Source of the DNA: Burkholderiales bacterium
Lineage (GTDB): Bacteria; Pseudomonadota; Gammaproteobacteria; Burkholderiales; Casimicrobiaceae
NCBI GenBank assembly: GCA_905339295.1
Contig: CAJPFI010000006.1
Location: 186,001-250,000 of the forward strand
Reading direction: 5' to 3'
Length of the DNA: 64,000 nucleotides
This document shows, piece after piece, positions 4,433-45,432 of this stretch. Within the stretch, counting starts at the first letter, position 1. The number at the start of each line of letters is the position of its first letter. The notes under the pieces are model-generated. The model had not been told where the DNA came from and searched no databases. It saw nothing but the letters and a program-made list of their open reading frames with translations. Position numbers and translations under genes: made by a program.

Positions 4433-5566
4433 ATGGACTTCGCGCTCACGCCCGAGCAGCGGCAGATCCGCGACACGTTCGCGCGGTTCGTCGACGCGGA
4501 GGTCGCGCCGCAGGCGGCGGCAATCGACGCCGCGCACGCCTACCCGCACGCGCACGTGCGCCGGCTCGCCGACCTCGGGTTCTTCGCGATGCGCTACCCG
4601 GAGGACGCCGGAGGGCTGGGCCTCGACCTCGCGACGTTCTGCCTCGCGCTCGCCGAGATCGCCCGCGGCTCGATGTCGCTCGCCGGCTGCGCGGCGATGC
4701 AGGCGCTGATGGGCACGAAGTTCCTGCACCTGCTCGGCGGCGCCGACATCGTCGAGCGCCTGTTCCGGCCGGCGCTCGCCGCGGAGAAGATCGGCGCGAT
4801 CTGCATGACCGAGCCGAACGCCGGGTCGGACCTCGACGCGATCGCGACGACCGCGCGCAAGGTCGACGGCGGCTACGTCCTCGACGGGCAGAAGACCTGG
4901 GTGACCGCGGCGCCGGTGGCCGACTTCTTCACCGTGTTCGCGCGCGCCGGCGAGGCGAGGAAGCTCACGATCTTCCTCGTCGAGCGCGGCTTCGCCGGCC
5001 TCGCCGTCGGCCGCGCGATCGAGAAGATGGGCGTCTGGGCGCTGCCGACCTCGGAGCTCGCGCTCGACGGGTGCTTCGTGCCCGACAGCCATCGCCTGTC
5101 GCGCGTGGAAGGCGACGGCGAGGAGCACCTGAGGAAGACGCTCGCCGAGATCCGCATCATCACCGGCGCGATGGCGCTCGGCGTCGCGCGCGCGGCGCTG
5201 GACGAGGCGGTGCGCTACGCGGGCGAGCGCCGGCAGTTCGGCAAGCCGATCAACCGCTTCCAGGCGATCCAGTCGAAGCTCGCCGAGATGGCGACCGACC
5301 ACGAGGCGGCGCTCCACCTCGTCGGCTACGCCGCCTGGTGCCACGACAGCGGCGCGCCGCACCACCGGGAGGCCGCGATGGCGAAGCTCTTCGCGACCGA
5401 GGCGGCGGCGCGCATCTGCGACCAGGCGGCGCGCGTTCTGGCGTCCTACGGCTTCGCGATGGAGTTCCCCGTGCAGCGCTACCTGCGCGACGTGCGTTTC
5501 ACGCTGATCGGAGGCGGCACGAGCGAGATCCTCAAGCTCGTCATCGCCAGGGAGATGACGAGGTGA
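4433..5566 (+). CDS. iaaF: Acyl-CoA dehydrogenase, probable (2-aminobenzyl)malonyl-CoA dehydrogenase type
   Basis: The 377-residue protein shows a complete acyl-CoA dehydrogenase: the M-T-E-P-N-A-G-S-D substrate loop at 125-133, G-Q-K-T-W at 152-156, R-R-Q-F-G at 266-270, and the catalytic Glu in Y-G-F-A-M-E-F-P at about residue 344. FAD is the expected cofactor. The ATG begins on the base after the hyuB stop. In the iaa set the matching enzyme (IaaF) oxidatively decarboxylates a benzylmalonyl-CoA to a cinnamoyl-CoA, and the position just ahead of the B12 mutase genes fits that role. The family and full length are certain; the decarboxylating activity and substrate are inferred from the cluster. 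Confidence 0.85.
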   Translation: MDFALTPEQRQIRDTFARFVDAEVAPQAAAIDAAHAYPHAHVRRLADLGFFAMRYPEDAGGLGLDLATFCLALAEIARGSMSLAGCAAMQALMGTKFLHLLGGADIVERLFRPALAAEKIGAICMTEPNAGSDLDAIATTARKVDGGYVLDGQKTWVTAAPVADFFTVFARAGEARKLTIFLVERGFAGLAVGRAIEKMGVWALPTSELALDGCFVPDSHRLSRVEGDGEEHLRKTLAEIRIITGAMALGVARAALDEAVRYAGERRQFGKPINRFQAIQSKLAEMATDHEAALHLVGYAAWCHDSGAPHHREAAMAKLFATEAAARICDQAARVLASYGFAMEFPVQRYLRDVRFTLIGGGTSEILKLVIAREMTR

Positions 5567-40969: not shown

Positions 40970-42613
40970 ATGAAGACCTACCAGAATCCCACCTACCCCT
41001 ACGTGCGCGTTCCCGACCAGGACGCCGCGCCGGCGATCAGGCCGGTGATCGTCGTCGGCGCGGGGCCGATCGGACTCGCGCTCGCGATCGACCTCGGCAT
41101 GCGCGGCGTGCCGGTGGTCGTGCTCGACGACGACGACACCGTGAGCGTCGGCTCGCGCGCGATCTGCTATGCGAAGCGCTCGCTCGAGATCCTCGACCGG
41201 CTCGGGTGCGCCGACGCGATCTGCGCCAGGGGCGTCGGCTGGAACGTCGGCAAGGTGTTCCACCGCGACGAGCTGGTCTACCGGTTCGAGCTCGTGCACG
41301 AGCGCGGCCACCACCGGCCGGGCATGGTCAACCTGCAGCAGTACCACCTCGAGGAGGCGCTGGTGAACCGCGCGCGCGAGGTGCGCGGCGTCGAGTTGCG
41401 CTGGAAGAACAAGGTGATCGGCGTGCGGCCGGGCCGCGACCGCGTCGACGTCACCGTCGATACCCCCGACGGCCCGTATTCGTTGTCGTGCGAGTGGCTG
41501 GTCGCGTGCGACGGCGCGCGCAGCCCGGTGCGCGGAATGCTCGGCGTCGAGAGCGAGGGGCAGGTGTTCCGCGACCGGTTCCTGATCGCGGACATCCACA
41601 TGAAGTCGGACTTCCCGCCCGAGCGGTGGTTCTGGTTCGACCCGCCGTTCCACCCTGGCCAGTCTGTCCTGCTGCACCGGCAGGCCGACGACGTGTGGCG
41701 GGTCGACTTCCAGCTGGGCTGGGACGCCGATCCCGACGAGGAGAGGAAGTCCGATCGCATCCTGCCGCGCCTTGCCGCGATGCTGGGCCCGGACGCGCGC
41801 TTCGACATCGAGTGGGCGAGCGTCTACACGTTCCAGTGCCGCCGGATGAAGCGCTTCCGGCACGGCCGCGTGATCTTCGCCGGCGACTCGGCGCACCTCG
41901 TGTCGCCGTTCGGCGCGCGTGGCGCGAACAGCGGCTTCCAGGACACGGACAACCTCGCCTGGAAGCTCGCGCTGGTCATCGACGGGCGCGCGCCCGAGGC
42001 GCTGCTCGAGTCGTACGATGCCGAGCGCACGCGCGCCGCGGACGAGAACCTCCGGAACTCGACACGCTCGACCGATTTCATCACGCCGAAGACCCCGGTC
42101 TCGCGCACGTTCCGCGACGCGACGCTGCAGCTCGCGAAGCGCCACCCGTTCGCGCGCCGCCTCGTCAACAGCGGACGGCTGTCGGTGCCCGCCGTGCTTG
42201 CGGACTCGCCGCTCAACACGCCGGACCGCGATCCGGACTTTCCGTCCGGTCCGGGCGCGATGGTGCCCGGCGCGCCCGCGGCGGACGCGCCGGTGTCGGG
42301 CGCGGAGGGACCGTGGCTGCTGCGCTACCTCGAGCGCGGCTTCACGCTCCTCGCGTTCGGGCCGCTGCCGGACGACGCGGTCGCGGCGCTCGCCCGGGCT
42401 CCGGTGCCGGTGAACGTGGTGCAGGTCGACGCGCCCGCCGCGCCCGGCGCCGAGGCGATCGGCGACACCGAAGGGCTCGTGGCGTCGCGCTACGCCGCGC
42501 TCCCGGGCACCTGCTACCTGCTGCGGCCCGACCAGCACGTTTGCGCGCGCTGGCGCGCGTTCGACCTGCCGGCCGTCGCAGCCGCGTGCGCGCGCGCGAC
42601 CGCGCGCAACTGA
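40970..42613 (+). CDS. FAD-dependent aromatic monooxygenase, MhaA-like (3-hydroxyphenylacetate 6-hydroxylase candidate)
   Basis: The 547-residue flavoprotein belongs to the UbiH/phenol-hydroxylase-like group: V-V-G-A-G-P-I-G-L near 29-37, the conserved D-G-A-R-S-P-V-R near 180-187 and F-A-G-D-S-A-H-L-V-S-P-F-G-A-R near 302-316. A C-terminal thioredoxin-like part extends to the end. Its next neighbours are a DUF2783 small protein and homogentisate dioxygenase. This matches the two-part 3-hydroxyphenylacetate 6-hydroxylase MhaAB of Pseudomonas putida U, which makes homogentisate. Substrate choice is inferred from the neighbours; 3-hydroxybenzoate or 3-(3-hydroxyphenyl)propionate hydroxylases are relatives. 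Confidence 0.82.
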   Translation: MKTYQNPTYPYVRVPDQDAAPAIRPVIVVGAGPIGLALAIDLGMRGVPVVVLDDDDTVSVGSRAICYAKRSLEILDRLGCADAICARGVGWNVGKVFHRDELVYRFELVHERGHHRPGMVNLQQYHLEEALVNRAREVRGVELRWKNKVIGVRPGRDRVDVTVDTPDGPYSLSCEWLVACDGARSPVRGMLGVESEGQVFRDRFLIADIHMKSDFPPERWFWFDPPFHPGQSVLLHRQADDVWRVDFQLGWDADPDEERKSDRILPRLAAMLGPDARFDIEWASVYTFQCRRMKRFRHGRVIFAGDSAHLVSPFGARGANSGFQDTDNLAWKLALVIDGRAPEALLESYDAERTRAADENLRNSTRSTDFITPKTPVSRTFRDATLQLAKRHPFARRLVNSGRLSVPAVLADSPLNTPDRDPDFPSGPGAMVPGAPAADAPVSGAEGPWLLRYLERGFTLLAFGPLPDDAVAALARAPVPVNVVQVDAPAAPGAEAIGDTEGLVASRYAALPGTCYLLRPDQHVCARWRAFDLPAVAAACARATARN

Positions 42614-42631
42614 CCGCCCACGGGGAAACCG

Positions 42632-42838
42632 ATGGCCGCGCTCCTGACCGAACCCAACCTCGCCTCGCCCGACGATTTCTACGAACGGGTCATCGCCGCG
42701 CACCGCGGCCTTGACGACGCGCAAAGCGCGACGGTGAACGCGAAGCTTATCCTGCTGCTCGCCAACCACATCGGGGACGCGCAGGTGCTCGAGCAGGCGA
42801 TCGCGGCCGCGCGCGAGGACGTCGCGCCGGCCCCCTGA
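42632..42838 (+). CDS. DUF2783 small protein, MhaB-like coupling protein
   Basis: A 68-residue protein with S-P-D-D-F-Y-E-R-V-I-A-A-H-R-G-L and S-A-T-V-N-A-K-L-I-L-L-L-A-N-H-I, the DUF2783 pattern. Such genes are found directly after flavin monooxygenases beside hmgA. In P. putida U the corresponding small MhaB is needed for productive hydroxylation by MhaA. It lies 18 bp after the monooxygenase gene and 21 bp before hmgA, so one transcript is likely. Confidence 0.8.
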   Translation: MAALLTEPNLASPDDFYERVIAAHRGLDDAQSATVNAKLILLLANHIGDAQVLEQAIAAAREDVAPAP

Positions 42839-42859
42839 CTTCCGAACGCGGAGACTGCG

Positions 42860-44206
42860 ATGACCCACGACACGACCGCCGCCGCGCGGACCGCCGCGCT
42901 CCTGTCCCACGCGCCGCTCGCGTACATGACCGGGTTCGGCAACGAGTTCGCGACGGAGTCGCTGCCGGGCGCGCTGCCGGTCGGGCAGAACTCGCCGCAG
43001 AAGTGCCCGTACGGACTGTACGCCGAGCAGTTGTCGGGGACGGCGTTCACGGCGCCGCGGCACGCGAACCGGCGCACGTGGACCTACCGGATCCGTCCCG
43101 GCGCGATGCACGAGCCGTTCCGGCGCATCGACCACCGCCGCCTCGGGAGCGCGTTCGGCGACGTCGTGGCTCCGCCCGACCAGATGCGCTGGGACCCGCT
43201 GCCGCTGCCCGCCGACCCGACCGACTTCGTCGACGGCCTCGTCACGATGGCGGGCAACGGTGCGCCCGCCGCGATGTCCGGTTGCGCGATCCACCTGTAC
43301 GCCGCGAACCGGTCGATGAAGGACCGCTATTTCTACGATGCCGACGGCGAGCTCCTGATCGTCCCTGAGCAGGGCCGCCTGCGCATCGCCACCGAGCTCG
43401 GTCACCTCGACGTCGCGCCGACCGGGATCGCGGTGATCCCGCGCGGCGTCCGCTTCGCGGTCGACCTGCCGGACGGCGCGGCGCGCGGCTACGTCTGCGA
43501 GAACTACGGCGCGCCGTTCCGGCTGCCCGACCTCGGCGTCATCGGGTCGAACGGGCTCGCGAACCCGCGCGACTTCGAGATCCCGGTGGCGCGCTACGAG
43601 GACCGGGAGGGTGAATTCGAGCTGGTCGCGAAGTTCATGGGCAACCTGTGGTCGGCGAGGATCGGCCACTCGCCGCTCGACGTGGTCGCGTGGCACGGCA
43701 ACTACGCGCCGTACCGCTACGACCTCAGGCGCTTCAACGTGATGGGCTCGATCAGTTTCGACCACCCGGACCCGTCGATCTTCCTCGTGCTGCAGTCGCA
43801 GAGCAACACGCCCGGCGTCGACGCGATCGACTTCGCGGTGTTCGCGCCGCGCATCCTCGCGATGCAGCACACGTTCCGCCCGCCCTGGTTCCACCGCAAC
43901 GTCGCCTCCGAGTTCATGGGCCTCGTGCAGGGCGTCTACGACGCCAAGGCGGAAGGCTTCGTCCCCGGCGGCGCGAGCCTGCACAACTGCTGGACCGGAC
44001 ACGGCCCCGACGCGACGACCTTCGAGCAGCAGAGCAACGCCGACCTCTCGAAGCCCACGGTCATCCGCGACACGATGGCATTCATGTTCGAGACCTGCCT
44101 GCCTATCCTGCCGACGCGCTACGCGCTCGAGTCGGCGCAGCTCCAGCACGAGTACTACCGTTGCTGGCAGGGGCTGCGCAAGCATTTCGATCCGGCGAAG
44201 CCCTGA
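42860..44206 (+). CDS. hmgA: Homogentisate 1,2-dioxygenase
   Basis: The 448-residue enzyme is a complete homogentisate dioxygenase, beginning Y-M-T-G-F-G-N-E-F near 23-31. The iron ligands of the human enzyme (H335, E341, H371) correspond to His345, Glu351 and His381 here, with identical spacing. It cleaves homogentisate to maleylacetoacetate with O2. The later enzymes (maleylacetoacetate isomerase, fumarylacetoacetase) are not in the window. The gene ends 32 bp from the convergent kinase gene. Confidence 0.96.
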
Positions 44207-44238: not shown

Positions 44239-45432
44239 TCAGCGCGCGTCGACAGGCAGGTCGTCGAAGCGCTCGCGCGCCTCCAGCGGCAGCTCCAGCA
44301 CGGCCTCGGTCGCGCGATCGTCGCGGCGCTGCAGCTCGAGCGTCGCGTCGCCGTGGTAGAGCGCGTCGAGGCGCTGGCGGATCGATCCGATGCCGTCCCC
44401 TTCGAGCTCGGGGACGAGTCCCGCCCCGCCGTCCACGATGTTCATGCGAAGGCGCCCGCCCAGGACCCTCGCGACGATCCCGATCGTTCCGTCGCCGGAG
44501 GTTCGCTCGAGTCCATGCACGATCGCGTGGTCGATCAGCGGCAGGAGCATCATCGGCGGCATGCGTGCAGCTCCTGCGTCCGACGGCACGTCGATCGACA
44601 CCTGCAGCCGGTCGCCGAGCCGCAGGCGTGCGATGTCGAGATAGGCCCGCGCGAGCTCGACCTCCTGCGCAACCGTGGACGAGGTGTCGCGCATGAGCGG
44701 CATCGCGGCGCGCAGGTAGGCGATGAGGTCGTCGAGCATCCGCGCGGCCAGCGTCGGATCGATCTCGTACAGCCGCTCGACCTGCGCGAGCGTGTTGAAC
44801 AGGAACTTCGGTTCGACGCGAGCCTGCAGCGCCTGGAGCCGCGATTCGAGCGCCGCCTTCGAGCGTCGGATGCGATCGAGCTCGGCCGCGTGCAGCCGGC
44901 CTTCGGTCCTGCGGGCCGCCCGGCGGTCGGCGTAGAAGAAGACCGCGGCGCTGCCGACGAGCAGCCAGTAGGTCAGGTGGAAGACCGGCATGTAGAGCCA
45001 GCGCGCCGGGTCGTGCAGCCAGGTGAAGTGCGCGGGCCAGCGGACATCCAACAGCCAGTCCTGCCAGGCCACGTTGACCGGCAAGGAGACGAGGACGCCG
45101 AGCAGGGACCCGCCGATCGCGGCGACGACATAGGCGCGCCGCATCGGTGCGCCCCGGTCGACGGCGCGATCGGCGATGACGATGGCGGCGAGCAGCGCGA
45201 ACGCGCGGATCTGGTCCAGGACGGCGAAGCCCGCCAACACCATGGGCACCGAGGTCGTCCGCGCGAAGTTGACGAGCGGGATGGCGAAGGTGATGGCGTT
45301 GACCACGGAAATGACGAGCCCGAAGACCATCGCGGCGACCACCTGGCCTCCGCGGATGTCCCGCAGCGCGCCGATCGCCAGCTCGGCGAAGGACGTGCTG
45401 TCGTCGCGGTGCGTGGACGCGGCGGGGTTCAC
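44239..45432 (-). CDS. Degenerate LytS-type sensor kinase (probable pseudokinase)
   Basis: The 397-residue protein has four to five membrane segments (about 30-165) and a His_kinase domain of the LytS group. The motif that should read E-P-H-F-L-F-N reads E-P-K-F-L-F-N, so the phosphoacceptor His is Lys209. The N-box, normally E-N-A-x-K-H-G, reads D301-H302-A-I-V-H-G, losing the Mg-binding Asn, and the G-box D-N-G-x-G reads D-G-G-A-G. It should not phosphorylate itself, and may act as a partner or regulator of the intact kinase just upstream. It starts with GTG overlapping that kinase's stop (GTGA) and ends the four-gene operon. Confidence 0.85.
   Translation of the reverse strand: MNPAASTHRDDSTSFAELAIGALRDIRGGQVVAAMVFGLVISVVNAITFAIPLVNFARTTSVPMVLAGFAVLDQIRAFALLAAIVIADRAVDRGAPMRRAYVVAAIGGSLLGVLVSLPVNVAWQDWLLDVRWPAHFTWLHDPARWLYMPVFHLTYWLLVGSAAVFFYADRRAARRTEGRLHAAELDRIRRSKAALESRLQALQARVEPKFLFNTLAQVERLYEIDPTLAARMLDDLIAYLRAAMPLMRDTSSTVAQEVELARAYLDIARLRLGDRLQVSIDVPSDAGAARMPPMMLLPLIDHAIVHGLERTSGDGTIGIVARVLGGRLRMNIVDGGAGLVPELEGDGIGSIRQRLDALYHGDATLELQRRDDRATEAVLELPLEARERFDDLPVDAR

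Follow-up and report, generated by a model that had tools for sequence, protein, structure and literature searches.

The 64,000-nucleotide stretch of DNA analysed here (the window) carries two adjacent LytS-type genes, an intact histidine kinase (K1) and a pseudokinase (K2). We think it reasonably likely that K2 is a non-catalytic subunit of a heterodimeric LytS-type sensor formed with K1, within a three-part K1-K2-LytTR system, and there is no physical evidence of a dimer. Comparison of the locus with related loci supports a probable K1:K2 heterodimer, with heterodimerization itself being an inference from aligned sequences. The evidence comes from the recurrence of the pair, the consistent loss of catalytic residues from K2, the natural absence of its ATPase domain in three loci, and losses in the dimerization region (DHp) of K1 that match those of K2.

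Gene Organization of the Window Locus

The genes concerned lie on the minus strand in the order LytTR regulator, TonB-dependent receptor, K1 and K2, with the following features:

50066-49302, minus strand: LytTR response regulator of 254 aa, counted from the start adopted in this analysis
49273-46571, minus strand: TonB-dependent receptor, 900 aa, whose stop overlaps the K1 start by four bases (ATGA)
46574-45429, minus strand: K1, intact LytS-type histidine kinase, 381 aa, with H196, E288-N289 and D321-N-G-x-G
45429..45432, minus strand: GTGA, where the K2 start overlaps the K1 stop (TGA) by four bases
45432-44239, minus strand: K2, LytS-type pseudokinase, 397 aa, with a membrane part, a DHp-like region and a degenerate ATPase region
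44600..44841, minus strand: PF06580 region of K2, residues 198-276, with K209 (in place of His) and N213 on helix 1, and I237 and R241 kept on helix 2

K2 starts with GTG at 45432-45430 and stops at 44241-44239. It reads EPKFLFN at the phosphoacceptor site, with K209, and D301-H302-A-I-V-H-G where E-N-A-x-K-H-G is expected, followed by D334-G-G-A-G338. Re-reading the sequence bore out the coordinates, strand, frame and letters (K209, D301-H302, DGGAG) given for K2 in the initial annotation, and likewise the overlap of its start with the intact kinase gene (four bases, GTGA). That annotation also described the fold as intact, which stands for the reading frame (397 aa) and could not be upheld for the ATPase half: the PF06580 match of K2 reaches 61.6 bits against a curated cut-off of 25.2, whereas a Pfam search at E 0.01 did not find HATPase_c in K2, although it is present in K1. 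Its listing of DGGAG as a lost motif does not hold. In the G1 box (D-x-G-x-G), the residue at the second position can be T, S, N or D among the 21 K1 compared and T, N, S, D or P among the 46 unpaired kinases, and the Asp and both flanking Gly are kept in the window K2. Since this residue varies among intact kinases, we rejected the DGGAG box as a sign of loss; the G1 box is lost in many other K2.

The TonB-dependent receptor is a candidate target or signal source of the system by inference only, and neither the signal sensed nor the targets are established. The window receptor does not reach the cut-off of any NCBIfam receptor model listed. On the plus strand (40970-44206), genes for an FAD-dependent oxidoreductase (NF006002) and a homogentisate 1,2-dioxygenase (TIGR01015) converge on K2, with no sign of a link between these genes and the K1-K2 system. 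The genome encodes five PF06580 proteins.

Distribution of K1-K2 Pairs

We searched 64 genomes of the family with K2, and 63 had a K2-like match at E 1e-10; among the matches listed, these were mostly ordinary kinases. Stretches were fetched around the better matches (60, plus 3, plus 20 with one repeat, plus 12 with one repeat and one overlapping), and every LytS-type frame in all of them was read. This yielded 21 K1-K2 pairs, 16 in the genus of the window and 5 in other genera, spread over five families (f1, f6, f11, f20, and f23) of one order:

Within the genus (16): window, L037 (twice), L038, L039, L040 (twice), L042, L045, L047, L048, L049, L061, L066, L070, L079
Outside the genus (5): L127, L128, L178, L179, L198

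Three incomplete loci stand outside the 21, namely L064 (K1 present, contig ending within K2), and L191 and L192 (K2 present, K1 off the contig). K2 is patchy even within the genus, having been seen in 12 of 22 genomes, including G048 as a cut end only; where it was not observed it may be absent or lie at a contig end, possibly so in G060 (L190). A scan of named genomes using K2 alone returned one distant relative.

The arrangement of the pairs recurs. K2 directly follows K1 in 20/21 pairs, 19 of them with the four-base overlap. Counting any following gene, a four-base overlap between the K1 stop and the next start codon occurs in 20/21; in L042 that start belongs to the regulator, which sits between K1 and K2. 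A LytTR regulator homolog on the same strand is found in all 21 clusters, as a fragment at the contig end in L045 and as one copy common to both pairs in L040. The TonB-dependent receptor is specific to a subgroup (the window, the second pair of L037, L038, L064, and L190), and L066 has a receptor-like frame on the opposite strand.

Several loci have unusual layouts. L037 (1267-9700, G043:C78) contains a six-gene run, K1-K2-regulator-receptor-K1-K2, with two pairs around one regulator and one receptor, and L040 (979-6477, G043:C7) contains two consecutive pairs and a single regulator, an arrangement that looks like a tandem duplication of the pair. Between the ATPase-free K2 of L128 and the regulator lies a small cupin-like frame (about 4760-5180), which may carry a signal peptide.

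An order-wide search with the regulator gave 28 matches outside its own genome, the best four of which have K2; none was seen beside the other 24, among which G219 could not be assessed because of a contig end, and G418 and G392 are close to such ends. Widened to the class at E 1e-82, the regulator search returned only its own genome (1/369, with at most 7 candidates scored per genome). The regulator score was tried as a marker of pairs and set aside as not clean, with unpaired loci reaching 319.5 bits (L180) and paired ones falling to about 290 (L070).

Loss of Catalytic Residues and of the ATPase Domain

In the alignment, the phosphoacceptor His is present in 22/22 K1 and 45/46 unpaired kinases and in none of 23 K2. 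The N-box Asn follows the same pattern (22/22 K1; 46/46 unpaired, or 43/43 without the remote singles), being absent from all 20 K2 that have the region. The pseudokinase reading of the initial annotation, based on the loss of phosphoacceptor and N box from a single gene, is thus supported by comparison: the second gene lacks His in 21/21 pairs, so that the finding which would have refuted it, homologs that keep His and Asn with this strain alone changed, did not materialize. K2 proteins carry Q (10), R (4), A (2), E (2), K, G, T and D (1 each) at the His site (n = 22), plus D in L198, and Lys occurs in the window K2 only. The one unpaired kinase among 46 without His is in L068 (2066-3352, G052:C290), where Gln occupies the site and the N box is intact.

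The ATPase domain is affected as well. HATPase_c was identified in 17/17 K1 and 1/16 K2 (Pfam, E 0.01), with PF06580 found in all proteins of both sets. In three loci from three families, the domain is entirely absent from K2: L127 (253 aa), L128 (248 aa), and L178 (236 aa). In L178, a one-contig genome, the regulator starts about 20 bases before the K2 stop, and there is therefore no room for an ATPase domain between them; downstream of the L127 and L128 K2, no ATPase region was seen when all three frames were read. The view that the function of K2 may reside in its membrane part and DHp-like region finds its strongest support in these three proteins.

Conservation of K2

The regions of K2 differ in how well they are kept. 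Across the 16 pairs of the genus, mean pairwise identity in the DHp region is 0.575 for K1 and 0.497 for K2, compared with 0.542 and 0.304 in the ATPase region; the N-terminal part stands at 0.201 and 0.212. Within the closest trio, the DHp region reaches 0.772 for K1 and 0.813 for K2. Judged by these identities, the DHp region of K2 is nearly as conserved as that of K1, and its ATPase half is decaying. The three comparisons in the closest trio gave NG86 dN/dS values of 0.41, 0.33, and 0.30 for K1 and 0.40, 0.35, and 0.23 for K2, at dS values near saturation (0.97 to 1.85). K2 homologs at 20-55% identity keep an open frame, and third-position GC in K2 is 0.92. The earlier view that K2 is kept by selection rather than decaying agrees with the 21 pairs and with a dN/dS of K2 like that of K1. 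Distances among K1 and among K2 are correlated (r 0.768, 0/5000 permutations, n = 16), as would be expected for any genes travelling together in a shared operon.

Complementary Losses in the DHp Helices

Starting at K1 residue 166, we searched the alignment for positions that are relaxed in only one of the partners. The scan was exploratory, its thresholds were our own choice, and the remote singles L082, L083, and L093 were left out of it and of the residue counts (leaving 43 unpaired kinases). In K2 only, the relaxed DHp positions are His196 and Asn200 (K1 numbering) on helix 1, and in K1 only they are 224 and 228 on helix 2; a third K1 flag, at 379, is a gap artefact. The helix-1 Asn, four residues past the His (+4), is found in 22/22 K1, 6/23 K2, and 43/43 unpaired kinases. 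On helix 2, the Ile at 224 is kept by only 3/22 K1, against 21/23 K2 and 38/43 unpaired kinases, and the Arg at 228 by 8/22 K1, 23/23 K2, and 42/43 unpaired kinases. The K1 of the window carries K224 and S228 at these two positions, which are mostly Ile and Arg in unpaired kinases.

The losses in the two partners therefore look complementary on sequence grounds, helix 1 being affected in K2 and helix 2 in K1. Both relaxed pairs are spaced i, i+4. If the D212-P213 loop is counted as the turn, residues 224 and 228 are inferred to lie opposite about 201 and 197, at the level of Asn200 and His196. On a tree from which these columns had been removed, K1 and unpaired rows need no fewer than 8 changes in Arg/not-Arg state and no fewer than 8 in Ile-Leu-Val/other state, which argues for repeated loss and not one inherited event. 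The pattern is not universal, as Arg is kept in 8/22 K1 and the K1 of L128 keeps both residues.

Phylogeny and Structure

A tree including the catalytic columns placed K2 on one side of a branch (SH-aLRT 97). A quick tree without the catalytic columns required 2 changes for K2 and 2 for K1; eight rows were left out of it, namely five K2 (L127, L128, L178, L079, and L070) and three remote singles. Holding K2 or K1 together gave a higher likelihood than the quick tree (p-AU 0.80 and 0.82, respectively), and K1 plus K2 were separated from the singles with a support of 85. A repeat tree that also excluded the helix-2 columns, with the same five K2 and the remote singles omitted, was similar. A single origin is allowed by these trees, without being established. 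The nearest PDB relative of both the K1 and K2 profiles is 6swj/6swk. AlphaFold, given K1 as the sole additional row, modelled K2 with a mean pLDDT of 45.

Proposed Mechanism and Alternative Explanations

If K2 is a subunit of a heterodimeric sensor, K1 and K2 would pair via their DHp helices and K2 would bring its own membrane sensing part. ATP would be bound by K1 only, and K1 His196 would be the sole phosphoacceptor, from which phosphate would pass to the regulator. A more specific version, which we offer tentatively and hold at somewhat less than even, is that the heterodimer is obligate and its active face split, each subunit retaining the half that its partner has lost, in which case neither should function alone. 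The live face would then consist of K1 helix 1 (His and Asn) and K2 helix 2 (Ile237 and Arg241), and the dead face of K2 helix 1 and K1 helix 2. The initial annotation proposed that K2 tunes the active kinase; this may be too weak a wording, because K1 has itself lost residues in a way that suggests dependence on K2.

The same sequence facts would fit an inhibitory K2 as well, which we regard as unlikely without dismissing it. In that case, K1 homodimers would be active and K2 would titrate K1 into inactive heterodimers for as long as K2 has not sensed its signal, in the manner reported for RetS inhibiting GacS (PMC12675982). Such an inhibitor does not predict that K1 should lose helix-2 residues conserved in unpaired kinases, and the four-base overlap in 19 of the 20 adjacent pairs suggests a matched dosage that fits a fixed complex at least as well. 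K2 might instead act on the response regulator, either as a decoy dock or as a phosphatase that needs no His, a rather improbable option. An Asn at a position such as that of N213, which the window K2 keeps four residues past the lost His, can serve phosphatase activity by analogy with other kinase families. A kinase without His, DivL, can also bind a regulator (PMC4211667). Asn(+4) occurs in only 6/23 K2, so this is not the general job of the K2 family, and a His-free phosphatase was rejected as a general K2 function on that count.

We give little credence to the idea that K2 relies on a component other than K1 for its sensing or action and that their adjacency is merely inherited from a duplication. 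It would account for N-terminal membrane parts that differ strongly both between K1 and K2 and among homologs (mean identity about 0.2), and it is at odds with the conserved DHp region, the gene overlap and the complementary pattern. It seems hardly tenable that a kinase was recently duplicated and that K2 is the copy now decaying as a pseudogene: the loss of catalytic residues is what such a gene would show, and yet homologs keep an open frame, dN/dS resembles that of K1, third-position GC is 0.92, the DHp region is conserved, and the same losses occur in other families. Decay confined to a single strain was rejected on the same losses across 21 pairs in five families. A heterodimeric sensor with K2 as its non-catalytic subunit thus remains our preferred explanation.

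Comparison with Known Systems

FasA is a LytTR-type regulator, and FasB and FasC belong to another kinase subfamily than K1 and K2. This group A Streptococcus system is nonetheless the nearest precedent, as it also combines two sensor-kinase-like proteins with one regulator. FasB and FasC interact mutually and not with themselves in two-hybrid assays, FasC cut to its membrane part plus DHp still works, FasC H246 is needed and is proposed to be phosphorylated by FasB, and FasA binds a ComE-like site (PMC12675982). As in FasB/FasC, the ATPase domain of one partner appears dispensable in K1-K2, since it is naturally absent in three loci; unlike FasC, which keeps its His, K2 has none at the site. 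Set against this precedent, the expected three-component architecture of two kinase-like genes clustered with one regulator is met, and a dispensable ATPase domain in one partner is met through its natural absence in L127, L128, and L178, without an experiment, whereas a FasC-style His carried by the pseudokinase partner is absent from K2 (0/23), the chief departure from the FasC model.

The ordinary kinases of the LytS/AlgZ type that accompany LytTR regulators, represented here by the 46 unpaired rows, share PF06580 and the kind of regulator with K1-K2, but are single genes with His and N box in which the helix-2 Ile and Arg are mostly kept. The RetS and GacS genes of Pseudomonas aeruginosa are not known to be linked in the manner of the K1-K2 operon. 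As in the proposed K1-K2 sensor, a kinase-like protein there controls another via heterodimer contact, although GacS and RetS also homodimerize and are of a different kinase family (PMC12675982). Caulobacter DivL resembles K2 in that its His is replaced (by Tyr) and it acts without kinase activity while retaining the dimer; it differs in keeping its N, G1, F, and G2 boxes, in working via CckA and DivK, and in not being a tandem LytS partner (PMC4211667). The ChrS pseudokinase of Corynebacterium glutamicum is ATPase-dead and, as we suppose for K2, acts through heterodimers, in its case with HrrS; it is a laboratory-evolved frameshift and not a natural conserved gene family (PMC9491836).

Pseudokinases and kinase heterodimers are therefore already known from DivL, RetS, ChrS, and FasC. 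A conserved LytS-family partner that has lost its His and then its ATPase domain, and whose losses have a counterpart in the active partner, appears new: no description of such a partner was found in the open-licence full-text literature, a scope that leaves out most subscription papers.

Pseudokinase partners of bacterial sensor kinases have been known only as scattered cases. The K1-K2 loci, all in one order, form a natural gradation between a K2 whose ATPase region is near-complete and a K2 that has shed it, with an intact partner and a clustered regulator throughout. If the complementary losses do mark one live face, they would offer a direct way to ask which subunit, and which of its helices, makes up the surface for phosphorylation and docking in LytS-type kinases.
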